From: a virus | Virus record (IMG/VR): IMGVR_UViG_3300028925_004690 | Location: 1-46,172 of that record | DNA length: 46,172 nucleotides | Strand: one strand, 5' to 3' | Shown here: in pieces, positions 1,741 to 46,172 of the stretch | How the letters are laid out: the number at the start of each line of letters is the position of its first letter | Position numbering within the stretch: position 1 is the stretch's first letter | The notes under the pieces: model-generated | What the model saw: only the letters and a program-made list of their open reading frames with translations | Database searches by the model: none | What the model was told of the DNA's origin: nothing | Program-made: the position numbers and the translations under genes

Positions 1741-4171
1741 ACAGTTAAGAGAATCAATCATAGATATTCCTAGAAGTGTATATGCCCCTCTTGTATTTGA
1801 TGACGCTAATACTTCTAATCCTAAGATAAAACAATCAGTATTGGATATGATTGAAAATCAGATTAAAGAATTCGAAACAGAATATCCTGTTATCAAAATT
1901 GCATTGATAGGTTCTATTCTTACAAAGAGATATAGAAATGACGCTGACTTAGATATCAATGTTCTATTTGATGTACCTGCTGATAAGGCAGAAGATGAAA
2001 GAATAAGATTATCGAAACAATATCTATCTGTAAGTAATCCTGATAACATTCAAGGTAAAGATATACCAGGTTCACAACATCCTGTTAACTATTATTTCAT
2101 TACAGATCAAGAAACTTATGATGACCAAAACTCTAAGGCAGATGCTGTATTTGATATTAGAGGTAACAAGTTTATTAAACGACCAGATGATTTTGATTTT
2201 GATATAAACTTATATCTAAAAGACTTTGAAAAGAAAGTACAAGAATTAGATGTTGTTAAGGGTGAACTCAAAAGAGATATAGTTGACTATAACGAACTAT
2301 CAGAATTAAAACCAGGTGAGATTAAAAACTTACAAGATAAGTTAGATATTAAATTGAAAGAAATAGAAGCAAGTTTAGAAGATATAATCAACATAGGTGA
2401 TCTAGTTGATGCTGAAAGAAGAACAGCATTTGATACTGATATGTCACCAGACGAGATTAGAACATTTGGTGTTAAGAATAGACTACCTAAAAATGTTATC
2501 TATAAGATGTTAGAGAAATATCATTACTTAACATTCTATAAAAAATGTAAAAAGATATTAGACGATGGAGAAGTTTCAGACGCTGAAATAGATTCATTGA
2601 AAAACGAAAATGCCCAAAGTAAAACTAGGGCAGTCAACGAGGCATTAGATAAAGGCAACAAACTGATTTTCGCTTTTGGTAGGTTCAACCCTCCTACTAC
2701 TGGCCACGGTAAACTTATGAAGGAAGTGATTACACAAGCCCGAAAGAACAATGCTAATCACATTGTTTATGCTAGTGCCTCTACTGACAAAAGAAAGAAT
2801 CCATTAGATGTAAAAACTAAAGTTAAATTTATGAAGAAGATGTTTCCTGAAAATAAGATACAGGCTGCTGGAGGCACACAAAGAACATTCATGGAGATAC
2901 TAAAGTTTTACGATAAGATGTATGGTGAAATTATTATGATTGCTGGTAGTGATAGAATTAATGAGTTTCAAAAACTTGCAGACAAATACAATGGTACAGA
3001 TTACAATTACAAATCTGTTAAAGTTGTATCATCAGGCGAAAGAGATCCTGACGCTGAAGGTGTTACTGGTATGAGTGCAAGTAAGATGAGAGACATGGCG
3101 AAGAATGACGACTACAGAAGTTTCAAGACAGGTGTAGTTGGTCTCTCTGCTACAGATAGTAAGGCACTATTCAATGCAGTTAAAAAAGGAATGGGTATTA
3201 ATGAAAAAGTAGAAAGTTTTACTAACTTTATTAATAACGATTTACGAGAAGAATATCATCAAGAGAAAATATTTAATATCGGAGACATGGTAGAACATAT
3301 GGATGGTTCTAAGGGTATGGTTATTAGACGAGGTTCTAACTATGTATCATACGACTCTGATGGATTGATTAAGAAGGCATGGTTGTATGATTTACAAACA
3401 CTTGATGAAGCACCAAGAATACCTAGAAAGAAAGGTCAACCTGCAGGTTCAGATAAACATTCTGACTTATATACAGATGAGAACCCAAAGGGTACTATCA
3501 AAGGTCTCGGATTTAAAGATGTAGAAACTGCAAGAGCAAGTGTAAGTAAGATAAAGAGTTCGGGTAAGACACACGCACACAAAATTCAAGCTGCTGTTGC
3601 TATGGAACAAAGAGCAAAAGAAATGGGTAAGTCTGCTGAAGCAAAGATATATCGTACATATATTGACCAGATGAAGAAGAAAACAAAAGAAATGCAGAAA
3701 GAAGATTCAATTATAGATGAATTACAGAAAGAATTTTCACTACCTGGCAATAGATTTACTGACTATATAAAGAGTAAAACAGTAGATCGTAGAGCAGTAC
3801 AAACGGGCATCAGTCTATTCAAACAAAAAATGAAGTCTGCCAGTGTATTTAAAGACAGAGCAGGTCTTGCTGCAGACATAGCACAAAAAGTTGGTGTTGG
3901 ATTTCGTGAGTTTCAAGATGTATTAACAGCAATGGGACTACTAGAATACTATGAAATAGGTACAGATCAGTCTGCTCATCATACTATGTCAATGACCCCA
4001 GGTCAACCGATACAGAATTTTAGAAGATACACTATGAAGATAGATGAAAAAGATATTGAAAAATTTGCCAATGAAGGTGATACAATAGATAAATATAAGA
4101 AACGATACGGTGAGAGTTGGAAAGAAGAACTCGATAAAGCACTTATAAAGATGAGGAATCAACTACAATGA
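1727..4171 (+). CDS. Multidomain protein: nucleotidyltransferase + NMN adenylyltransferase-like domain
   Basis: A large protein of 814 residues. Residues 1-15 (MKTFKQLRES...) look like a T4 capsid-targeting sequence with a possible protease site LRE|S. Residues about 58-82 carry GS...DADLD, typical of pol-beta/MNT-type nucleotidyltransferases (GS at 62-63, Asp74 and Asp76). From about residue 314, GRFNPPTTGH, GSDR and SGERDPDAEG...GMSASKMR match the HxGH-type NMN adenylyltransferase (NadM-like) domain common in cyanophages. From about residue 560, a conserved phage region containing GTIKGLGF and HAHKIQAAVAME follows, and the tail is charged. A role in NAD synthesis or nucleotide transfer is inferred. 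The next ATG overlaps the stop (ATGA). Confidence 0.75.
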   Translation: MKTFKQLRESIIDIPRSVYAPLVFDDANTSNPKIKQSVLDMIENQIKEFETEYPVIKIALIGSILTKRYRNDADLDINVLFDVPADKAEDERIRLSKQYLSVSNPDNIQGKDIPGSQHPVNYYFITDQETYDDQNSKADAVFDIRGNKFIKRPDDFDFDINLYLKDFEKKVQELDVVKGELKRDIVDYNELSELKPGEIKNLQDKLDIKLKEIEASLEDIINIGDLVDAERRTAFDTDMSPDEIRTFGVKNRLPKNVIYKMLEKYHYLTFYKKCKKILDDGEVSDAEIDSLKNENAQSKTRAVNEALDKGNKLIFAFGRFNPPTTGHGKLMKEVITQARKNNANHIVYASASTDKRKNPLDVKTKVKFMKKMFPENKIQAAGGTQRTFMEILKFYDKMYGEIIMIAGSDRINEFQKLADKYNGTDYNYKSVKVVSSGERDPDAEGVTGMSASKMRDMAKNDDYRSFKTGVVGLSATDSKALFNAVKKGMGINEKVESFTNFINNDLREEYHQEKIFNIGDMVEHMDGSKGMVIRRGSNYVSYDSDGLIKKAWLYDLQTLDEAPRIPRKKGQPAGSDKHSDLYTDENPKGTIKGLGFKDVETARASVSKIKSSGKTHAHKIQAAVAMEQRAKEMGKSAEAKIYRTYIDQMKKKTKEMQKEDSIIDELQKEFSLPGNRFTDYIKSKTVDRRAVQTGISLFKQKMKSASVFKDRAGLAADIAQKVGVGFREFQDVLTAMGLLEYYEIGTDQSAHHTMSMTPGQPIQNFRRYTMKIDEKDIEKFANEGDTIDKYKKRYGESWKEELDKALIKMRNQLQ

Positions 4172-21314: not shown

Positions 21315-21673
21315 TGAGTAGTACGATATATACATATCAAAAATCAAAGAGAAAACCTATACCTTTAACTAGAGATAGGTTGTTGACGCTGAAAGAACAC
21401 GAAAGAGCATTGAAGAAGTTGGGTGTTGATTCAAGTCGACCTACTGATTTATCAGATGGTCCGTTAGTGAAGCGGTTATCACGCCTGCCTGTCAAGCAGG
21501 AGACCACGGGTTCAAATCCCGTACGGACCGCCAGTAAGATGGGCGGTAGTGGTACTGTACCTATTGAGAACTGGAAGCTTCAAGAGAGTAAAAACTTTAC
21601 AGTTGCACCTGCTTATAATAAAGGTGCATATCAAGTTATTACTAAAAACAATATTAAAGACATAGGCAAATGA
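21314..21673 (+). CDS. Conserved phage protein frame interrupted in-frame by a tRNA gene
   Basis: An open frame of 119 residues. Residues 1-48 (with TRDRLLTLKEHERALKKLGV) and 76-119 (MGGSGTVPIENWKL...) look like the two conserved ends of a small protein family of marine T4-like phages. Residues 49-73 are the translation of a complete tRNA-Asp (21458-21533). The frame is kept through the tRNA, so full translation is possible. An ATG at 21539, right after the tRNA, could start the second half separately. Starts at the previous stop (TAATG). Confidence 0.5.
   Translation: MSSTIYTYQKSKRKPIPLTRDRLLTLKEHERALKKLGVDSSRPTDLSDGPLVKRLSRLPVKQETTGSNPVRTASKMGGSGTVPIENWKLQESKNFTVAPAYNKGAYQVITKNNIKDIGK
21458..21533 (+). 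tRNA. tRNA-Asp (GTC), CCA encoded
   Basis: A complete cloverleaf. The acceptor stem is GGTCCGT with ACGGACC, followed by discriminator G and an encoded CCA. The D arm is GTGA...TCAC. The anticodon stem is CCTGC/GCAGG with loop CTGTCAA (anticodon GTC at 21491-21493). The variable loop is five bases, and the T arm is ACGGG-TTCAAAT-CCCGT. It decodes GAT and GAC. It lies inside an open reading frame on the same strand. Confidence 0.95.
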
Positions 21674-35920: not shown

Positions 35921-36817
35921 ATGAGTTCTATTAAAACTATGGTAGGGGCAATCGCTCTTGCTATGGCACTTACTTCTATATCTGTCGCTGAAACTACGGT
36001 GACACTACCAGATGTAAATGCCTCAATATATGGTAAGTTAAATTACATGGCTTACTACAACGAAGATACATCGGGCAACGGTGTATGGAAGTCTGGCAAT
36101 AATGCTTCAAGAATTGGATTAACAATTGAAGAAGCTGGTGATATAAATGCTTTTGGTAAAATCGAAGTTGGCGTAAATGTTGATGACGATTCAAATAACA
36201 CTTTTACATCTAGACTTGCATACTTAGGAGTTGACGGTGGTGATCTTGGCAAACTTAGTGTAGGTCGTCAAAATTCAGTATTTACTGCTGTGACTGGCGC
36301 TACAGATGTTTTCAATGTATATGGTTCTAACGCAGATCAAAACCAAGGTGATAGATTATCTAACACTTTAGTTATATCTAATAGCATTGGACTTGCTAGT
36401 ATTTCTACTCTTATTCAAATGGATGGAACAGACAATACTAAAGACATTGACAAACATGAAATTGCTGCTACATTAAGTGGTGTTTCTGTAGGTTATTCAA
36501 AAGATAACAATACAGACATTAGTTATATGGCAGCGTCTGGATCAATTGATCTAGCCGAACTATCTGTTACTGGTGCATATTCTGTTAAAGATAATGCTGG
36601 TACAGAAACTAAAGGTTATGAAGTTGTTGCCTCAATCGGTAGCATTAACGCAGGATACGGTGAAATCGTAGATGGCGATACTTTCATAACTGCTGGAATA
36701 GATCATCCAATTACTGGTGCTCTTTCTGTTTATGCTGAATATCAGTTAGAACAGAATGATACTGCTGGTGCAAAAGATCAGAATAACTATGCTATAGGTA
36801 CTAAGATAGTATTTTAA
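35921..36817 (+). CDS. Outer-membrane porin
   Basis: 298 residues. A signal peptide (MSSIKTMVGAIALAMALTSI..., cut near SVA|ETT) is followed by repeated amphipathic beta strands typical of Gram-negative general porins. INAFGKIEVGVNVDD, SRLAYLGVDGGDLGKLSVGRQNS, VSVGYSKDNN and the closing strand NNYAIGTKIVF with terminal Phe are all hallmarks of barrels inserted by the BAM complex. It is framed by two terminators and has its own late promoter, a 5' hairpin and AAGGAGAACAAT. Host acquisition is likely. A role in nutrient uptake or in blocking receptors against rival phages is inference. Confidence 0.85.
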   Translation: MSSIKTMVGAIALAMALTSISVAETTVTLPDVNASIYGKLNYMAYYNEDTSGNGVWKSGNNASRIGLTIEEAGDINAFGKIEVGVNVDDDSNNTFTSRLAYLGVDGGDLGKLSVGRQNSVFTAVTGATDVFNVYGSNADQNQGDRLSNTLVISNSIGLASISTLIQMDGTDNTKDIDKHEIAATLSGVSVGYSKDNNTDISYMAASGSIDLAELSVTGAYSVKDNAGTETKGYEVVASIGSINAGYGEIVDGDTFITAGIDHPITGALSVYAEYQLEQNDTAGAKDQNNYAIGTKIVF

Positions 36818-37444: not shown

Positions 37445-37951
37445 ATGAAAACACTAATCAAACTAGTGTTATTCGGTGCGGCGTTGTTATGGTTATGTGG
37501 GTGGGCATTTGATAACACCATAAAATATGTACAAGCTTCTGAACTTGATTTCCAATTCGGCAATCCAGCGTTTAGTGGCAATGGGTATGGTACCCATGTT
37601 CTAAGTGTAGATCAACTACAAACTCAAAGAAAAAAAGACAAAGAAGATAAAGCAAGATCAGCTGCTTCAGCAGCAAAGCGTGAACTAAACAATACTACAA
37701 TCGCCAAGTTCGTTAAGAATGTTGAGAGTAGAATATATGCTAACTTATCAAAACAGTTAGTTGATAATATGTTTGGTGTTTCTTGTGATAGTTCAACAAC
37801 GACCTGTGCTACAAGTGGTACAGCAGATGTTGAAGGATCAACAATCTATTGGGTTAAAGATGCTACAACAGACAACATTACATTAACAATAACAGATCCT
37901 AACGGCACCGTCAGCACAATGACTGTACCTGTTGGCGACTTTGTATTTTAA
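37445..37951 (+). CDS. csgF: Curli assembly protein CsgF
   Basis: 168 residues. After a signal/anchor segment ending near VQA, ELDFQFGNPAFSGNGYGTHVL is the conserved mature N-terminus of CsgF, the part that inserts into the CsgG pore. The rest has FVKNVESRIYANLSKQLV and a beta-rich end, YWVKDATTDNITLTI...GTVSTMTVPVGDF, matching CsgF's C-terminal half. An extra Lys/Ala-rich helix and a CDSSTTTCATSG loop lie between. CsgF caps the outer-membrane CsgG channel and helps nucleate curli fibres at the surface. Confidence 0.85.
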   Translation: MKTLIKLVLFGAALLWLCGWAFDNTIKYVQASELDFQFGNPAFSGNGYGTHVLSVDQLQTQRKKDKEDKARSAASAAKRELNNTTIAKFVKNVESRIYANLSKQLVDNMFGVSCDSSTTTCATSGTADVEGSTIYWVKDATTDNITLTITDPNGTVSTMTVPVGDFVF

Positions 37952-37961
37952 GGAGAGAGAA

Positions 37962-38309
37962 ATGGACAAGAAAAGTATAGTGCAATATTTTATTTACATA
38001 CCTATCGTTGCTACGGTATTAGGTTTACTTTATACTGGTATCACTACATTTAATAACATACAGACTAATCTAGAACAGTCAACATTACAATTAGAATTAT
38101 TGAAGAAAGACCTCAATCAAATAAGTAGTGAGATCACTAGAACGAAAGAGGATTTTACAAGAGAGTTGACTAGAATGGCGACTGAAATGGCTGAGGCAAG
38201 AGCATACATTGACACTTCTAGAGAAAATGGTTACACAATACAAAATACCGTTAGTCAAAACACATACGATATTAAGGAACTAACAAGACAATTAAATGGA
38301 GGTTGGTAA
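37962..38309 (+). CDS. Membrane coiled-coil protein in the curli cassette
   Basis: 116 residues from ATG 37962 (AAGGAGAGAGAA upstream). One membrane helix (about 9-30, YFIYIPIVATVLGLLYTGI) is followed by a long coiled coil (about 35-85). An in-frame start 30 bases upstream would overlap csgF. Its role is unknown; position suggests an inner-membrane part of the curli machinery. Stop overlaps the next ATG. Confidence 0.6.
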   Translation: MDKKSIVQYFIYIPIVATVLGLLYTGITTFNNIQTNLEQSTLQLELLKKDLNQISSEITRTKEDFTRELTRMATEMAEARAYIDTSRENGYTIQNTVSQNTYDIKELTRQLNGGW

Positions 38310-38749
38310 TGATATTCTTCCGTAGTTTAATAATAAGTGTAATTGCGATATGGTTTATATCTACAATTAATTCACACGCTGCCAATGAATATCTGAATAG
38401 TGGGGGTATGTCTTGCTCTCAAGGTAGTATTGAACCATATGCTGAATGGTCAGAACGAGAAGGAACTAGTGGGTCCTTTTATACAAATAATGGTGACTTA
38501 AACACATTTACATATCCTCAAGGCGAAACAGACGAGTGGCGTGCTGGGGTTAGATTTCGTTGGAACTTAGGTTCATCTTGTAATAAGGTAACAAGAAAGA
38601 TTATGCAAGAGAATGAAATGTTAAAACAAGAGTTAGAACTATTGAAATTATGTGGTAGATATAAGAACTTAGAATTAGGTCCTGAATTTGCTACTGTAAA
38701 AAGAAAGTGTGCTAACATTAAACCGAAAGAACCGCTAGAAGTAAAATGA
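38309..38749 (+). CDS. Small exported protein in the curli cassette
   Basis: 146 residues from ATG 38309 (GGAGGTTGG upstream). Signal peptide (MIFFRSLIISVIAIWFIS... cut near SHA|AN). The mature part is aromatic and Gly-rich with WRAGVRFRWNLGSSC, resembling an outer-membrane beta strand. It then has a helix and four cysteines in total. It takes the place where curli operons often carry csgE, but I see no CsgE motif. It overlaps csgG by four bases. Confidence 0.55.
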   Translation: MIFFRSLIISVIAIWFISTINSHAANEYLNSGGMSCSQGSIEPYAEWSEREGTSGSFYTNNGDLNTFTYPQGETDEWRAGVRFRWNLGSSCNKVTRKIMQENEMLKQELELLKLCGRYKNLELGPEFATVKRKCANIKPKEPLEVK

Positions 38750-39558
38750 GAAACTTTGCTTTATTTCTAGTATTAATGTTAACAGGTTGTGCTACTGTAC
38801 CTGGTGATTATCCCTACAAGGAATCACCACCTAAGGCATATGGTACACCGACAGGTGAGATATTAAATTATTACGATCATTTAGATCAAGAAGTTATTAC
38901 AGTTGCTGTATATCAATTTGCCGATAAGACTGGTCAAAGAAAACCGAGTACAAAGTTTTCACAATTAAGTATGGCAGTTTCTCAAGGTGCAGATGTATGG
39001 GTAATACAAGCACTCAAAGAGACAGGTGATGGTACTTGGTTTAGAGTTGTTGAAAGAGCAAGTTTAGGTAATCTTGTTAAAGAGAGACAACTAATCAGAT
39101 CAACAACCGAGTTATACGATGGATCAGACAAGGGTCAAGCAGTTCTAAAACCTATGTTATTTGCTGGTCTTTTATTTGAAGGTGCGATTGTAGGTTATGA
39201 CGCAAATGTAGAAAGTGGTGGCGATGGTGCAAGATATTTTGGTATAGGCATACACGAAGAATATAGAGTAGATCAGGTAACTGTATCTATGAGAATTGTA
39301 TCAGTACATACAGGTGAAATAATGATTGCTGTATCATCAACAAAATCTATTGCGAGTTTTAAAACTGGTAGAGATGTATTTAAGTTTTTAGATATGGGTA
39401 CAAAGGCATTAGAATTAGAGTCGGGTGCAGCTGTAAACGAACCAGTTAATTATGCATTGAGATCAGCAATAGAACATTGTATATTGCAAATATTAGATGA
39501 GGGTAAAATAAAAGGTCTGTGGAAAACTAAATTAAGACCTCACGGAATAAACGGATAA
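38746..39558 (+). CDS. csgG: Curli secretion channel lipoprotein CsgG
   Basis: 270 residues. Signal peptide with lipobox LTGCAT (Cys15). ITVAVYQFADKTGQRKPS, GADVWVIQALKETGDGTWFRVVERASLGNLVKERQLIR, GIHEEYRVDQVTVSMRIVSVHTGEI and YALRSAIEHCI are the defining blocks of CsgG, whose nonamer forms the outer-membrane pore for curlin export. The length agrees with bacterial CsgG. In the same overlapping run as csgF and curlin-like genes. Confidence 0.92.
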   Translation: MRNFALFLVLMLTGCATVPGDYPYKESPPKAYGTPTGEILNYYDHLDQEVITVAVYQFADKTGQRKPSTKFSQLSMAVSQGADVWVIQALKETGDGTWFRVVERASLGNLVKERQLIRSTTELYDGSDKGQAVLKPMLFAGLLFEGAIVGYDANVESGGDGARYFGIGIHEEYRVDQVTVSMRIVSVHTGEIMIAVSSTKSIASFKTGRDVFKFLDMGTKALELESGAAVNEPVNYALRSAIEHCILQILDEGKIKGLWKTKLRPHGING

Positions 39559-39569
39559 AGGAAAAACAA

Positions 39570-40250
39570 ATGAAGAAAATTTTAAGTATTGTTATGTTTA
39601 TGATGTTTAGTACAGCGTATGCAAATGATATTTACATCACGCAATCAGGTGCTAGTTTAGACTTAGATATATTACAAGACGGAGAGAATAACACAATAGG
39701 TAATTCTACAACCGTGTCTAGTGTTATAGGTGCAACGACTAACTTTAATATCAAACAAATTGGTAATGCCAATGTTATCACCTTTGATATTAATGGTGCC
39801 AACTACACAGGTACTTGGGATATAACAGGTAACTCAAACAACATTGACTTTAATTGTGATAGTGGTGCTTCTAACTCAAGTTGTGCTACTGCTACTGCAA
39901 ATATAACATGGACAGGTAGTTCACAAAATATTGATTTAGATATCGGTGAGACTGCTTCTGCTTCAAGTGCTACAGTTAATATAACTGGTGCGTCTGGTTC
40001 TGATTCAAATGTTATTGCTGCTACGATAGATGGTAACTCTGCTATTCTAACACTTACAGTTAATGGCGATTCAAATAATTACTTAATTGATATTGATGGT
40101 AATGGTGACTCAGTTGGTCATACATTAATTCACACTCATACAGGAGATACAGCAGATGTAGACATTGTACAATCTGGTACAAATGATAATATGTTAAATC
40201 TAACTACTGTAGGAAACAGCCACGATATTGATATAACTCAACGAGACTAA
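39570..40250 (+). CDS. Curlin-repeat fibre protein (CsgA/CsgB-like)
   Basis: 226 residues. A signal peptide (MKKILSIVMFMMFSTAYA) is followed by imperfect curlin-type repeats with spaced Gln, Gly and Asn: ITQSGASLDLDILQDGENN, FNIKQIGNANVITFDI, DIVQSGTNDNM, DIDITQRD. The strand-turn pattern rich in Asn, Ser and Thr is that of the secreted amyloid subunits CsgA and CsgB. Its most likely route out is the CsgG-CsgF channel encoded just upstream. The centre is more degenerate, with a CDSGASNSSC pair. AAAGGAAAAACAA is the ribosome site. Confidence 0.75.
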   Translation: MKKILSIVMFMMFSTAYANDIYITQSGASLDLDILQDGENNTIGNSTTVSSVIGATTNFNIKQIGNANVITFDINGANYTGTWDITGNSNNIDFNCDSGASNSSCATATANITWTGSSQNIDLDIGETASASSATVNITGASGSDSNVIAATIDGNSAILTLTVNGDSNNYLIDIDGNGDSVGHTLIHTHTGDTADVDIVQSGTNDNMLNLTTVGNSHDIDITQRD

Positions 40251-41350
40251 TGAAACTTTTTGTAATATTACTTCTTCTTGCAAGTGTAAGTAATTCTTAT
40301 GCAAGTATAGGAGAGGTGATATTGCATGAAGGCAATGGCGTCATTGAAAGAAAATCAAACGGCGAAGAAGTCACTTCACAAATAGACGAAGAAGTCTTTT
40401 CATACGACACAATCAAAACAGGTAAAGGTAAAACAGCAATAGAGTTTATTGATATGACTCGTGTTGATGTTACCGAACACTCTAAACTTATCATTGATGA
40501 ATTTGTTTACGACCCTAATACTAAGACAGGTAAACTATCACTCAAAGCAGGACTAGGTACAATCAGATATGCCTCTGGTCAAATTGCAAAAACTAGTCCA
40601 ACAAGTGTAACGATAACAACACCTACTGCTACAATAGGTGTTCGTGGTACAGACTTTTCTATGACTGTAGATGAGATAGGAAGTTCTACAATCATTCTAT
40701 TACCAAGTTGTGATACAAGTGGTAACTGTTATGTTGGCGAGATATCAGTAGAGTCAGACGCAGGTCAAGTCATACTCAATCAAGCATTTCAGGCAACAGT
40801 TGTTGATACGATTTCTAGTTCGCCTATGAAACCTGTCATCTTAGGTTTAGATGAAAATATGATTGGTAATTTATTGATTATATCTAGACCAGCTGAGATA
40901 ACTAAAGAATTAGAGAGATCAGAATATATACAAGTTGCTAGTGCTCTTGACTTAGACTTTCTACAATTTGATGATTTAGAAATTGACTATCTAGAAGAAG
41001 ATGAAAGCGCTTGGGCAACAGCACTTGATATAGATTTTCTAGAGCAAGATTTCTTAGGTGACATTCTCAAACAATTAAATGACCAGTTAGCAAAACGAAT
41101 GAGAAGTGAGTTCGATAAAAAGAGATCGGGTGATGGTGTGGTCACAGGTAAAGATGAAGCAACAGGTATTATCATACTAAATGAAGAACCGCAATGGTTA
41201 GTGATACGAGAAACAGAATCAAACTACTTTGAACTAAGACTGGATCAAGAGTATGGATACAATATAAATATAGTGCAAGGCGATGATGAAATTTACGATT
41301 ACGAAATAGGAGGAAATGTCAATGAGATTAATATTATACAGTCTAATTAG
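40250..41350 (+). CDS. FecR-domain exported protein with curlin-like C-terminal tail
   Basis: 366 residues. Signal peptide (cut near SYA|SIG). The FecR domain runs from about 20 to 140, with the hallmark TPTATIGVRGTDFSM at 124-138. A linker with repeated ALDLDFL/ALDIDFL units follows (about 224-262). The last 30 residues (NINIVQGDDE... and NEINIIQSN) look like curlin repeats. It is probably periplasmic. FecR proteins are often paired with CHASE2 cyclases, one of which is encoded two genes on. The start overlaps the curlin gene stop. Confidence 0.75.
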   Translation: MKLFVILLLLASVSNSYASIGEVILHEGNGVIERKSNGEEVTSQIDEEVFSYDTIKTGKGKTAIEFIDMTRVDVTEHSKLIIDEFVYDPNTKTGKLSLKAGLGTIRYASGQIAKTSPTSVTITTPTATIGVRGTDFSMTVDEIGSSTIILLPSCDTSGNCYVGEISVESDAGQVILNQAFQATVVDTISSSPMKPVILGLDENMIGNLLIISRPAEITKELERSEYIQVASALDLDFLQFDDLEIDYLEEDESAWATALDIDFLEQDFLGDILKQLNDQLAKRMRSEFDKKRSGDGVVTGKDEATGIIILNEEPQWLVIRETESNYFELRLDQEYGYNINIVQGDDEIYDYEIGGNVNEINIIQSN

Positions 41351-41672
41351 TTTAGCAGTAGTATTTTTTATATTTACTGTACATATCAGTTATGCAAACG
41401 ATTTTAATTTAACTATTGTTACTAGTAATAATGGTGACCTTGATGTTCTACAAGATGGCGAAGATAACGACATTGATTTTGATGTACAAAGAATGAATGG
41501 TTTTGATATAGATTTAACACAAGTTGGTGATGACAATACTATTGATGTAGATGTTGATGGCAGAACGAGTAATGGTTCTTCAATGGCAATCACACAAACA
41601 GGAGATAATAAAAGTTATAGTGGCACTTTCTATTGTGGTCATTCTTCCTGTTCTATGACCGTAAACCAGTAA
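41322..41672 (+). CDS. Second curlin-like fibre protein
   Basis: 116 residues from ATG 41322, which has AGGAGG eight bases upstream; the ATG at 41316 is too close to it. Signal peptide to about ISYA. Repeats DLDVLQDGEDNDIDFDVQ, DIDLTQVGDDNTIDVDV and MAITQTGDNKSY carry the curlin Gln-x-Gly-x-x-Asn pattern. It could be the nucleator (CsgB-like) or a minor subunit to the larger curlin protein. It overlaps the FecR gene by 29 bases and the cyclase by one. Confidence 0.7.
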   Translation: MRLILYSLISLAVVFFIFTVHISYANDFNLTIVTSNNGDLDVLQDGEDNDIDFDVQRMNGFDIDLTQVGDDNTIDVDVDGRTSNGSSMAITQTGDNKSYSGTFYCGHSSCSMTVNQ

Positions 41673-43507
41673 TGAAAAAGATATTCACTCACTGGACGAT
41701 AGGTCTATTAACACTAGCAATACTTACCTTTATTGGGTTGAACGACCCATACCTCAAACAAATACTAAGACTCAAGTCATTTGATTACCTTCATCAATTT
41801 GAAACAAAAGAAATATCACCTGATATAGGTGTGGTAACAATAGATGAATTGTCTATTGAGAAGCATGGTCAATGGCCGTGGGATAGAAGAATACTTGCTG
41901 ACCTCGTACTCAAACTTAGAGAGGCACAAGTAGGTATTATTGTCATGCCGATACTCTTTTCTGAATATGATAGAATGGGTGGTGATGAAGAATTTATCAA
42001 TACAATAAATCAAATGGGTGTAGTAGTTGCACAGGTAGGTACAACACAAATTAATAAGAATGCTGTACCGAGAGGTGTTGCAAAGATAGGTGACCCACTA
42101 CCTTGGTTGTATGAATGGCCTGGTATGTTAGGACCAATCAAAGAGATTGGTGAATATGCAGATGGTGTTGGTGTTATCAATACGGCACCAGAGATAGATG
42201 GTGTTGTCAGACGAGTGCCTTTGATTATGAGAATTGGTGATGAAACATATCCTGCGATTGCTTTAGAAACTATAAGAGTGGCGACTGGCGATCCTAGTTA
42301 TCAGATTAAGGCGGGCGAAGGGGGAGTAATTGCTGTAAGGGTACCTGGTTACGATACAATCGCTACTGACGCACACGCAAGAATATGGTTAAGATGGAAT
42401 AAAGAGTTCGATACCATATCAGCAAGTGAAGAAGACTTTTCCGAATTCGCAGGTCGTACTGTTATTATCGGTATAACTGCCGAAGGATTGAATAGTATTA
42501 TTGCAACACCATTAGGGGAAATGCACGACTATATACTATCTGCTTCGACTTTACAGACGGTATTAGACGGAGATCAAATCAACAGGTACGATTATAGTCT
42601 ATTCCTAGAATTGATTATTTCAGTAGTTCTAGGCGTCTTAATTGTACTACTTGCAAGATTTACACCGTACTGGTTTATCGGCTTGACAATAGTATTATCT
42701 TATGTTATACTCGTATTTACTTCATATTATTTGTTTACCGAATACCTTATTCTCGCAGATGTAAGTTGGTCCATTATTTGCTTGACAATAGTAGGTATGC
42801 ATAGTATATTCAATCGGTTCGTTTTAGAGTTTCAATTGAAACAACAAATAAGAAAACAATTTGAAACATATCTAGACCCAAGACAAGTGGCAATATTACA
42901 GAAAGATCCAAGTAAACTAAAACTCGGTGGTGACAGACGAGAGATGAGTTTCTTGTTTATGGACATTATAGGGTTTACACCTATTTCAGAATACTACAAA
43001 AACAAAGATGATCCTGAAGGACTCGTAGAACTTGTTAATGAGTTTCTAGATGATATGACTAAAATATTACTCAACAATGGTGCCATGATTGATAAGTTTA
43101 TGGGTGACTGTATCATGGCAGTATTTAATGCACCGATTGATATGGAAGATCACGCAGAGATGGCAGTCAAGAGTGCTATGGAAATAGAAGCAAAGACAAA
43201 AGAACTCAAGGCATTATATAAAGAACGAGGACTACCTGATATCAATGTCGGAACAGGTGTGAACACAGGTACAGCAATCATTGGTAACATGGGTAGTTCA
43301 AATCGTTTTGACTATTCAGTTATAGGTGACGCAGTTAATCTGGCTGCGAGACTAGAGGCAACTGCTGGTCGAGGTGATTATAAAGATTGCCCAACATTAT
43401 ATTCAAGTTACACTCAAGAAAAACTCAAGAATATCAAGTCAGTTGAAGTAGATAAGATCAAAGTTAAAGGTAAGGAAGAGTTAATCACAATCTTCAAACC
43501 ATTATAA
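41672..43507 (+). CDS. CHASE2-domain adenylate cyclase
   Basis: 611 residues from ATG 41672 (overlaps the previous stop). An N-terminal membrane helix is followed by a periplasmic CHASE2 sensor (about 35-300, with GVVTIDELSIEKHGQWPWDRRILADLV and YADGVGVINTAPEIDGVVRRVPL). Three membrane helices (about 305-385) come next, then a class III cyclase domain. Asp431 in FMDIIGF and Asp479 in KFMGD bind metal. Lys475 and the DYSVIGDAVNLAARLE block mark ATP as substrate. It should make cAMP in the infected cell in response to an envelope signal, perhaps through the FecR protein. Confidence 0.85.
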   Translation: MKKIFTHWTIGLLTLAILTFIGLNDPYLKQILRLKSFDYLHQFETKEISPDIGVVTIDELSIEKHGQWPWDRRILADLVLKLREAQVGIIVMPILFSEYDRMGGDEEFINTINQMGVVVAQVGTTQINKNAVPRGVAKIGDPLPWLYEWPGMLGPIKEIGEYADGVGVINTAPEIDGVVRRVPLIMRIGDETYPAIALETIRVATGDPSYQIKAGEGGVIAVRVPGYDTIATDAHARIWLRWNKEFDTISASEEDFSEFAGRTVIIGITAEGLNSIIATPLGEMHDYILSASTLQTVLDGDQINRYDYSLFLELIISVVLGVLIVLLARFTPYWFIGLTIVLSYVILVFTSYYLFTEYLILADVSWSIICLTIVGMHSIFNRFVLEFQLKQQIRKQFETYLDPRQVAILQKDPSKLKLGGDRREMSFLFMDIIGFTPISEYYKNKDDPEGLVELVNEFLDDMTKILLNNGAMIDKFMGDCIMAVFNAPIDMEDHAEMAVKSAMEIEAKTKELKALYKERGLPDINVGTGVNTGTAIIGNMGSSNRFDYSVIGDAVNLAARLEATAGRGDYKDCPTLYSSYTQEKLKNIKSVEVDKIKVKGKEELITIFKPL

Positions 43508-43515: not shown

Positions 43516-44028
43516 ATGGCAAAGACTGTATTTGATAGAATTTTAGACAAGGCAACTGCACCTAAGTCATTTGACTGGTATAGAAAACAGGTCAAAGATA
43601 TGACTACACCTGGTGCAAAGTCTTTAATAACAAGAGGTAAAGCGACATTACGACCTAAGTATGGTATGATGAACTTGTTTGGATATGATGCTAAACACAA
43701 AGCAACATTACCTTATTATGATAAGTTTCCATTGATATTTCCAATAGAACCTGCAAAGGGTGGTTTCATTGGTATTAATTTTCATTATTTACCCTTTGGT
43801 GCAAGAGTAGCATTCCTAAAACAACTATCACAGTATGCCACAGATGAGAATTTTGATAACAAAACAAGATATAATTTAGATTGGGTTAATAACTCTTTCT
43901 ATAGAAAGACAACAAAACGATACTTGAATAGTCAAGTTAGAACATCATTTTTAAACATACCAGCAAATGAAATGGCGGTTGCAATATTTTTACCAGTCGC
44001 AAGATTTGTAGGTGGGAGACCTTACTAA
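43516..44028 (+). CDS. Conserved marine T4-like virion/assembly protein
   Basis: 170 residues. YGMMNLFGYDAKHKATLPYYDKFPLIFP, then GGFIGINFHYLPFGARVAFLKQL and a final FLPVARF match a protein found next to baseplate genes in all marine T4-like phages I can recall. Its assignment varies between databases and I give none. Starts leaderless from the late box. Coupled to the next gene by TAATG. Confidence 0.75.
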   Translation: MAKTVFDRILDKATAPKSFDWYRKQVKDMTTPGAKSLITRGKATLRPKYGMMNLFGYDAKHKATLPYYDKFPLIFPIEPAKGGFIGINFHYLPFGARVAFLKQLSQYATDENFDNKTRYNLDWVNNSFYRKTTKRYLNSQVRTSFLNIPANEMAVAIFLPVARFVGGRPY

Positions 44029-44972
44029 TGGCAATATTTAGAGCAGGAAAAAGAGTAGGACCATTCGATATAAGAGTAGGTTTTCCTAGAGACAAGAGTT
44101 TAGATAGAGTCGATCAAGACCCTAGATTGAGACAACAGGGTAATCAAGAAAATACCATTGGTCGTTTTCGTTCTATGATGGCCAAGTCAGAAGGTTATGC
44201 TAGAACTACAAGATTTGCAATTAGATTATCTTTACCAACTAATCTTGCAGACATAGTTTCACCTCAAAGAAATCCTAACGATAACAGACGCACCTCAGAA
44301 GATCCTAATGCTGCTACTATGCACCAATTGTCTACTGAAATGGGAAAACAAGTAAACATACATTGTGATTCTATCACCATGCCGGGTGTTGACTTACAAA
44401 CACAAAAAATTCAATACGGATCAGCACCAGAGTATGATCTAGTACAAGCAAGAGCATTTACTGGTCAGATCAATGCTTCTTTTTATGCAGATAAATATTT
44501 ACGAGAAAGACAATTCTTTGAAATGTGGCAAAAGATGGCAGTTAATCGTATTACACATAAAGCAAATTATTACGACAACTATGTTGGTAAAATGCATATA
44601 TACCAATTAGGTTCATTAGATGGAGAAGGTGATAGAGATATACCAACTTATGGCATAGAGGCAACAGAAGTTTATCCTCAAACGATAAGTCAGATTGACT
44701 ATAACTATGAAGGTAATAATATAGTAAAAGTCAATGTAGCATTTAACTACAAACAATGGTTCAATCTCACCGCTGACCATGTTGCAGGTATGCAGTTTGG
44801 TAAAGGAACTCAAACTCTACACGATATTAAAGGCAGAGCTGGTATTGATGGTCTATTAGATAGACTACCACCAGAAATCGCAAGAACAGGTAGAAGTATA
44901 TTCAATCAAGCAAAACAACAACTACCTATAGGAAGATTAACAAAAGGGAAAATATTTCCACCATTTACATAA
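44028..44972 (+). CDS. Tail-tube-like baseplate protein (gp48/gp54-type)
   Basis: 314 residues. A basic N-terminus is followed by RTTRFAIRLSLPTN, NIHCDSITMPGVDLQTQ, and DYNYEGNNIVKVNVAFNYKQW, the strand pattern of the phage tail-tube fold used by T4 gp19, gp48 and gp54. The extra N- and C-terminal extensions and its place before the gp26-type gene suggest the junction protein that starts tube growth on the baseplate. Confidence 0.65.
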   Translation: MAIFRAGKRVGPFDIRVGFPRDKSLDRVDQDPRLRQQGNQENTIGRFRSMMAKSEGYARTTRFAIRLSLPTNLADIVSPQRNPNDNRRTSEDPNAATMHQLSTEMGKQVNIHCDSITMPGVDLQTQKIQYGSAPEYDLVQARAFTGQINASFYADKYLRERQFFEMWQKMAVNRITHKANYYDNYVGKMHIYQLGSLDGEGDRDIPTYGIEATEVYPQTISQIDYNYEGNNIVKVNVAFNYKQWFNLTADHVAGMQFGKGTQTLHDIKGRAGIDGLLDRLPPEIARTGRSIFNQAKQQLPIGRLTKGKIFPPFT

Positions 44973-44998: not shown

Positions 44999-45712
44999 AT
45001 GGCACTACCAAAACTGAATACTCCAACATATGAGTTGGAAATACCAAGTACAGATGAGAAGATAAAGTATCGACCATTCTTGGTAAAAGAAGAAAAAATA
45101 TTAATGATGGCTATGGAAGCTGACAAGAATAAGGAAACTATTCAAGCAGTAAAAGATATAGTACATTCTTGTACATTTGAGAAACTAGATATTGCTAATT
45201 TACCTATGTTCGATATTGAATATATATTTTTAAATATTAGAGCAAAGTCTGTTGGCGAAACTTCTAAACTAAAAGTACTATGTCAAGATGATGGTAAAAC
45301 ATATGCAGATATTGAGATAAATTTAAACGATATTAATGTACAAGTTGATGAAGATCATACAAATAAAGTTGAGTTATCTGAAGATATGGGTATGATTATG
45401 AAATATCCTACACTTGAATCATTTATTGATCTAGGATTAACTAATATTACACCTGCTAATATGTTAGATGTCATTGGAAATTGTATTTTACAGATATATG
45501 AAGAAAAGGGTGAAAAAGTATATGATCCTAAAGATCAAAGTAAAAAAGAATTGATTGAATTTCTTGAGCAGTTGAATACACAACAATTCAAAGATGTTCA
45601 AAACTTTTTTGATACAATGCCTAAACTAAAACACGAAATAGAGGTATTAAATCCTAAGACTAAAAAGAAAAGTAAGATAACATTGACTGGGCTCAACGAT
45701 TTTTTCGAATAG
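44999..45712 (+). CDS. Baseplate hub/tail assembly protein (gp26-like), frame-0 product
   Basis: 237 residues. MALPKLNTPTYELEIPST, YRPFLVKEEKILMMAMEAD, FDIEYIFLNIRAKSVGE and the C-terminal HEIEVLNPKTKKKSKI match the T4 baseplate protein family (gp26). It starts behind AAGGAGACTAAATT. Two codons before its stop is the heptamer T_TTT_TTC (45700-45706), a classic -1 frameshift site. A shift there would make a fusion of 300 residues. Such short/long pairs are typical of tail-assembly chaperones. Confidence 0.85.
   Translation: MALPKLNTPTYELEIPSTDEKIKYRPFLVKEEKILMMAMEADKNKETIQAVKDIVHSCTFEKLDIANLPMFDIEYIFLNIRAKSVGETSKLKVLCQDDGKTYADIEINLNDINVQVDEDHTNKVELSEDMGMIMKYPTLESFIDLGLTNITPANMLDVIGNCILQIYEEKGEKVYDPKDQSKKELIEFLEQLNTQQFKDVQNFFDTMPKLKHEIEVLNPKTKKKSKITLTGLNDFFE
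45700..45706 (+). other. Programmed -1 frameshift slippery site (T_TTT_TTC)
   Basis: Frame 0 reads GAT TTT TTC GAA TAG. A one-base slip back lets both tRNAs re-pair on TTT TTT and continues at CGA (45706) in an open frame to 45900. I see no obvious strong stem right after it. Confidence 0.75.
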
Positions 45713-45900
45713 CCCTTTCACACGACAACCTAGAGAATTATTATAGTACTAATTTTGCTTTAATGCAACACCATAATTACTCTCTGGCAGACTTAGAGAA
45801 TATGATACCGTTTGAAAGGGAAATATATGTTGATATGTTAGTTCAATATATAAAAGAAGAAAACGAAAGAATTAAACGAGAAAGTAGTAATCAAGGATAA
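45706..45900 (+). CDS. -1 frame extension of the gp26-like gene (gp51-like)
   Basis: 64 codons, RIALSHDNLENYYSTNFALM... to SSNQG. Upstream the frame is closed by a TAA before 45680 and has no ATG, GTG or TTG until the ATG at 45755, which would cut off the conserved-looking start. The SLADLENMIPFEREIYVDMLVQYI block recalls a small baseplate assembly protein in marine T4-like phages. It is therefore best read as the second half of a frameshift fusion, like lambda G-T. Confidence 0.7.
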   Translation, partial: RIALSHDNLENYYSTNFALMQHHNYSLADLENMIPFEREIYVDMLVQYIKEENERIKRESSNQG

Positions 45901-45903
45901 ACT

Positions 45904-46172
45904 ATGAGTGAAGAAGTAAATAAAATTGAAGTCAAAGTAGCAGAACCAAAACAAAAGATACAAGTTGATCTTGAGGTTGATACTTCTATTAAAGACTTGG
46001 GTATAAACCCTTATGCAAAGATTATACACTTAGCAAGGGCAATAGACGCCTGGCGTATTTTCCCTAGAGTATTCATAACAACATATATCTTTTTATTATA
46101 CAAAGTTGTCATATGGTATATGGCATTAGGCAATCCATCAATGGAACAATCTGGTCTCGTAAGTATCGTAGT
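45904..46172 (+). CDS. Membrane protein, cut by window edge
   Basis: Open to the right edge. An acidic and basic N-terminus (MSEEVNKIEVKVAEPKQK) is followed by AKIIHLARAIDAWRIFPRVFITTYIFLLYKVVIWYM, a membrane helix. The layout recalls small membrane or holin-like proteins next to baseplate genes in marine phages. The ATG lies three bases after the previous stop, with AAGGATAAACT upstream. Confidence 0.6.
   Translation, partial: MSEEVNKIEVKVAEPKQKIQVDLEVDTSIKDLGINPYAKIIHLARAIDAWRIFPRVFITTYIFLLYKVVIWYMALGNPSMEQSGLVSIV

Follow-up and report, generated by a model that had tools for sequence, protein, structure and literature searches.

The last complete gene of the window, by which we mean the whole 46,172-nt stretch analysed here (positions 1-46,172 of the IMG/VR record IMGVR_UViG_3300028925_004690, from a marine T4-like virus), very probably encodes two tail-assembly chaperones, a short one of 237 aa and a long one of 300 aa, the latter produced by a -1 programmed frameshift. 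We put the probability of this reading, which is based on sequence comparisons, at nearly nine in ten; that slippage occurs, how often it occurs and that the products act as chaperones in this virus are what we infer. According to the proposed mechanism, most ribosomes would stop at TAG 45710 and release the short form, and a minority would slip back one base on the heptamer T_TTT_TTC while both ribosomal sites hold tRNA-Phe, and would then translate 64 further codons to give the long form. By analogy with gpG and gpGT of lambda, the role of the short form would be to coat the tape measure protein and that of the C-terminal domain of the long form to recruit tail tube subunits, and both forms would depart before the tail is completed.

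In outline, the frameshifted chaperone and the short/long pairing of T4 have already been reported for T4-like phages. The review of Atkins et al. (2016; PMC5009743) describes G-T frameshifting as widely conserved "except T4"; the PRFect paper (PMC10885494), citing Vladimirov, Gautam and Davidson (2022), mentions a short gene plus a longer fusion gene in some T4-like phages, and the Adele paper (PMC12846349), citing Vladimirov et al. (2022), poly-T slippery sequences in TAC-N genes of T4-like phages. With that pattern already known from T4-like phages, the gain here lies mainly in breadth, in a possible upstream stimulator and in a clade without the heptamer; measured against the open-licence literature of PubMed Central, the upstream element and the route taken by that clade may be new details. 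The rule of chaperone frameshifting, from which the 2016 review excepts T4, is extended to marine pelagiphages and cyanophages, and the frameshift reading yields testable products.

The gene, its slippery heptamer and the -1-frame extension

The short form is encoded on the plus strand at 44999-45712, with its TAG at 45710-45712, and the 3' end of the gene reads GAT TTT TTC GAA TAG. The 237-aa protein belongs to the family PF12322 (T4_baseplate), which it matches at 2.9e-63 and 213.9 bits against a curated cut-off of 24.5, and it also matches phrog_150, "baseplate hub" (4.2e-71). Matches to it were found in 822 of 50,697 phage records at 1e-5. An NCBIfam search gave no match for either the short form or the extension, and a search of solved structures by sequence gave nothing convincing for the short form.

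The -1 frame is open on the same strand from 45706 up to a TAA at 45898-45900, that is, for 64 codons plus the stop. The predicted long product thus comprises 236 + 64 = 300 aa, with the junction NDFFRIALSH. The 64 residues of the extension match phrog_634, "baseplate hub assembly catalyst" (4.8e-29), and also positions 235-278 of phrog_150 (2.9e-6), and matches to them occur in 585 of the 50,697 phage records at E 0.1.

Relatives were collected by a scan of IMG/VR, which returned 589; the best 80 of these 589, near-duplicates among them, were combined with further scans and 19 named phages into a set of 194 single-gene loci, window included. Three truncated loci (L077, L147 and L196) were left out, and 191 loci with a stop remained. 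From the heptamer-bearing loci only, 72 representatives with less than 85% nucleotide identity were chosen, and five loci without the heptamer (L092, L094, L098, L099 and L189) were left out of the codon-column analysis and of the counts on the 72. The gene of L189 stops early, which is probably a sequence error.

The heptamer T_TTT_TTC lies at 45700-45706 on the plus strand, with a single codon (GAA) between it and the TAG. An in-phase heptamer followed by the extension was present in 186 of the 191 loci; elsewhere in the 72 dereplicated homologous genes NNT TTT TTN was found in phase at only 4 of 16,750 codon positions, so the presence of the heptamer at this one place is beyond chance. When codon columns were compared in this heptamer-bearing set, the first Phe codon was TTT in 72/72 representatives, and among the 218 scorable columns only this one showed no synonymous variation. 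We rely on this comparison of columns, the computed probabilities being conditional on the heptamer and uncorrected for relatedness. The codon preceding this TTT was GAT, AGT, TCT, GCT or AAT (Asp, Ser, Ala or Asn), always with T as third base. The homologous Phe-Phe in gp26 of T4 and X20, both not frameshifted, is encoded by TTC TTT.

The extension evolves as a -1-frame protein under purifying selection. Among 26 close representatives, which contain no -1 stops within it, the differences at codon positions 1, 2 and 3 numbered 2587, 1237 and 4997, and synonymous to nonsynonymous single-base codon differences stood at 3275:1769 in the -1 frame versus 988:3780 in frame 0. The preliminary description had placed T_TTT_TTC in this phase before the TAG, followed by 64 open -1 codons with a start-less head and conserved residues before the first ATG, and had predicted products of 237 and 300 aa; its coordinates and arithmetic hold, and the constraint it supposed is seen. 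The comparison of relatives for heptamer, phase and extension that it proposed was favourable, given the 186/191 loci, the codon-level invariance and the -1-frame constraint.

The most probable alternative, still an improbable one, is that translation of the extension starts afresh, either by independent initiation or by termination-reinitiation, and yields a small protein of its own, the heptamer being incidental. GenBank largely treats it so: among 20 named single-gene records (L082-L087, L090-L102 and L210), 13 give the extension a gene of its own, which in some cases begins at an internal ATG, 7 omit it and none has a joined CDS. Moreover, a start codon lies 0-14 nt past the shift in 18 of the 72 heptamer-bearing representatives, for example nt-1, Cr30, RHphI1_9, Atu04, MA01 and S-CRM01, which makes re-initiation possible in those, and an ATG or ATT overlaps the stop in most members of the heptamer-free clade described below. 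Starts near the stop occur in several distant heptamer carriers, and in distant carriers of this kind the extension may be synthesized separately alongside slippage. However, the first start codon is more than 30 nt past the shift in 50/72 representatives. The -1 frame of the window has a stop at 45673 and then no ATG, GTG or TTG before ATG 45763; this ATG is 57 nt past the shift, inside the conserved part of the extension, and initiation there would cost the extension its conserved first 19 residues. The codon-level conservation of the heptamer (72/72 in a set chosen for it, 186/191 before selection) and the covalent fusion of the same domain in gp51 of T4-type phages also speak against a separate protein. 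On the frameshift reading a common annotation error is corrected, the extension having been called a separate gene or missed in 20/20 records.

Less probable still is slippage of RNA polymerase on the T run, which would yield a shifted message. The run reaches 7 or 8 T in 10/72 representatives, but it is only 6 T in the other 62, and a run of 6 T is short for polymerase slippage; the codon phase and the spacing of the Shine-Dalgarno (SD)-like motif upstream fit ribosomes instead. That Phe-Phe is conserved merely as protein, while the extension decays as what is left of a formerly fused gene, is scarcely credible: the GL..FF motif is indeed present in the non-frameshifted gp26 of T4, but the codon-level conservation of the heptamer, the strong constraint and the lack of -1 stops in the 26 representatives contradict it.

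Candidate stimulators around the site

GAGG, AGGA or GGAG occurs within 20 nt 5' of the heptamer in 49/72 representatives, but in only 10.1% of the 14,950 in-phase windows taken from the rest of these genes. The proportions were 42/56 outside the group to which the window belongs and 7/16 inside it. The window itself has none of the three motifs there and only GGG, a candidate weak SD-like element at 45689-45691 (plus strand), 8 nt before the heptamer. The Gly under the motif is invariant, so the motif possibly reflects protein constraint in part. Codon choice, counted with relatedness ignored, was nevertheless biased: outside the group the Glu preceding this Gly was GAG in 26/38 (background 27%) and the Gly itself GGA or GGG in 29/56 (background 28%), and inside the group the Gly was GGA or GGG in 15/16 (background 16%). 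It is possible from these patterns that the upstream element, itself weak in the window, stimulates frameshifting. An internal Shine-Dalgarno sequence stimulates -1 frameshifting in dnaX. The arrangement here resembles dnaX in that outside the group of the window the motif mostly ends 8-11 nt 5' of the heptamer; it differs from dnaX in that the relatives have no consistent downstream stem-loop and the motif of the window is weak.

A conserved downstream RNA stimulator was considered and rejected, as the 70 nt starting 6 nt past the heptamer had a median z of -1.15 over the 72 representatives; z was below -2 in 19/72, with mononucleotide shuffles as the sole control. No RNA stimulator was found in the corresponding 70 nt of the window (z +0.7).

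Relation to T4 gp26 and gp51 and to tail-assembly chaperones

Genes 26 and 51 of T4 are separated by 50 nt and read from opposite strands, and their products share the PF12322 match. T4 gp26 covers positions 14-235 of phrog_150 and ends there, while gp51 covers positions 13-280 and matches phrog_634 too. Profile comparisons related the short form to gp26 (probability 99.6%, E 1e-23) and to the N-domain of gp51 (98.0%, 3e-13), gp26 to the gp51 N-domain (99.2%, 1e-19), and the extension to the C-terminus of gp51 (95.8%, 7e-9); the control comparison of the extension with gp26 gave nothing. Based on these comparisons and on the coverage of phrog_150, we read T4 gp26 as the short form and its paralogue gp51 as an in-frame fusion that constitutes the long form. 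T4 thus resembles the window in homology, of gp26 to the short form and of the gp51 C-terminus to the extension, and differs from it in having two genes on opposite strands, of which the long one is an in-frame fusion and gp26 lacks a slippery site. The preliminary description had called the extension gp51-like and the T4 proteins products of separate genes. The homology to gp51 stands, although the counterpart is the C-terminal part of gp51 and not the whole protein; the genes are indeed separate, but gp51 alone already makes up a complete long form, with gp26 as its short paralogue. The record of the window, a linear fragment of 46 kb, contains one family match only; a second, fused copy may lie elsewhere in the genome.

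A divergent gp26 was located 47-53 nt from gp51 in all 10 T4-gp51-type loci found, among which gp51 is broken in L206 and gp26 is cut by the locus end in L200. Klebsiella phage KP15 (L209, 2001-3295) has both chaperone genes, long and short, in tandem on the same strand, whereas those of T4 diverge. An unrooted tree was built from 31 single-gene rows with the heptamer, 5 without it, and T-even gp26 and gp51 rows. The gp51 rows formed one clade (100/99), and T-even gp26 and gp51 together stood apart from all other rows (97/98). The gp26 of Aes508 and of KP15 had long branches near gp51 (82/55), and because of these two rows an origin of T-even gp26 and gp51 from one duplication is likely from the tree but not proved.

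Upstream of the putative chaperone gene lies a tail tube protein gene (44028-44972, plus strand; phrog_45, 3.8e-32), and downstream a small gene (45904-46172, plus strand; phrog_10198, 6.7e-16) that is cut by the end of the window. The relative L001 has the order DNA end protector, tail tube, chaperone gene, small gene and a 607-aa gene, the last of which matched only phrog_315, "endolysin" (1.9e-6), and no tape measure family. The long downstream gene of HTVC008M has its matches among tape-measure families (phrog_58, 8.4e-12). The putative chaperone gene thus has a tail tube gene on one side and a tape measure gene on the other, the former seen in the window, which ends before the latter, and the latter in HTVC008M.

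The same position between tail tube and tape measure, here in relatives, is found in lambda, and the two systems would also agree in a short form accompanied by a long form that arises when ribosomes slip back one base shortly before the short gene ends, which implies a low-abundance long form. They differ in that the short form of this virus is larger. The slippery heptamer of lambda differs from T_TTT_TTC. When the short form was modelled with AF2 (pLDDT 87.2) and the model compared with 803 chains, the best match was the tail assembly chaperone of HK97 (PDB 2ob9), which aligned with residues 1-85 at Z 8.0 over 83 residues and 4.0 A, a score in the range of chance resemblances; Foldseek gave E 6.7. 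Residues 5-95 matched the uncharacterised 3fgx at Z 7.6, and the next unrelated chain reached Z 4.4. Likeness to the HK97 protein thus concerns the predicted fold of residues 1-85; identity is only 6%, and the remainder of the short form was unmatched. A gp51-type model compared with the PDB gave no chaperone match, a chaperone fold being still compatible with it, and the N-terminal domain of gp51 gave nothing convincing when solved structures were searched by sequence. The viral structure library returned mostly gp26-like proteins. The model of the short form supports, without proving, a chaperone fold in its N-domain. For the comparison with lambda gpG/gpGT made in the preliminary description, gene order is a firmer support than the HK97 fold match. 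A T4 review (PMC3004832) counts both gp26 and gp51 among the hub assembly chaperones, with gp51 required yet absent from the particle. The record of Konradin already labels both products "tape measure protein assembly chaperone".

Relatives without the heptamer and neighbouring genes

The heptamer is lacking in Menlow (L092), K364 (L094), VPALA (L098), allotria (L099) and L189, and also in Cygsa01 (L210). Menlow, allotria, K364, VPALA and Cygsa01 formed one clade in the unrooted tree (98/98), and the heptamer-free clade (L092, L094, L098, L099, L210 and L212-L229) retains the -1 domain. The junction reads GAR ATT TTC ATY TAA in 18/18 Ackermannviridae-type loci, where the -1-frame codon overlapping the stop is ATG in 3 and ATT in 15. 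K364 and Cygsa01 have TAATG at the stop, and VPALA has no ATG there. The preliminary description had held that relatives without the heptamer but with a separate start for the downstream frame would count against frameshifting; such relatives were found only within this one separate clade (K364, Cygsa01 and the 3/18), the other 15/18 having ATT and VPALA neither codon. Judging from these junctions, it is possible that the clade expresses its -1 domain by an unusual slip or by re-initiation. The -1 domain is unannotated in the records of Menlow and allotria.

Tentatively, and with more doubt than confidence, we suggest that T4-like phages and their kin may make the same short/long pair in three ways: by a slip on T_TTT_TTY helped by an internal SD 8-11 nt upstream, by an undescribed slip or AUG/AUU re-initiation in the heptamer-free clade (Ackermannviridae, K364, VPALA and Cygsa01), and by duplication and fusion in T-even phages.

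A run of non-structural genes at 37445-43507 adjoins the tail genes of the window and constitutes a phage-borne curli-secretion and cyclase cluster. It encodes CsgF (37445-37951, 6.1e-13), CsgG (38746-39558, 5.2e-48), a FecR-domain protein (40250-41350, 2.2e-9) and a protein with CHASE2 and adenylate/guanylate cyclase domains (41633-43507, 1.4e-41 and 2.2e-19), with two small repeat-rich proteins encoded between the named genes. The window also carries a Gram-negative porin-like gene at 35921-36817 (PF13609, 1.6e-17) and a tRNA-Asp gene at 21458-21533.
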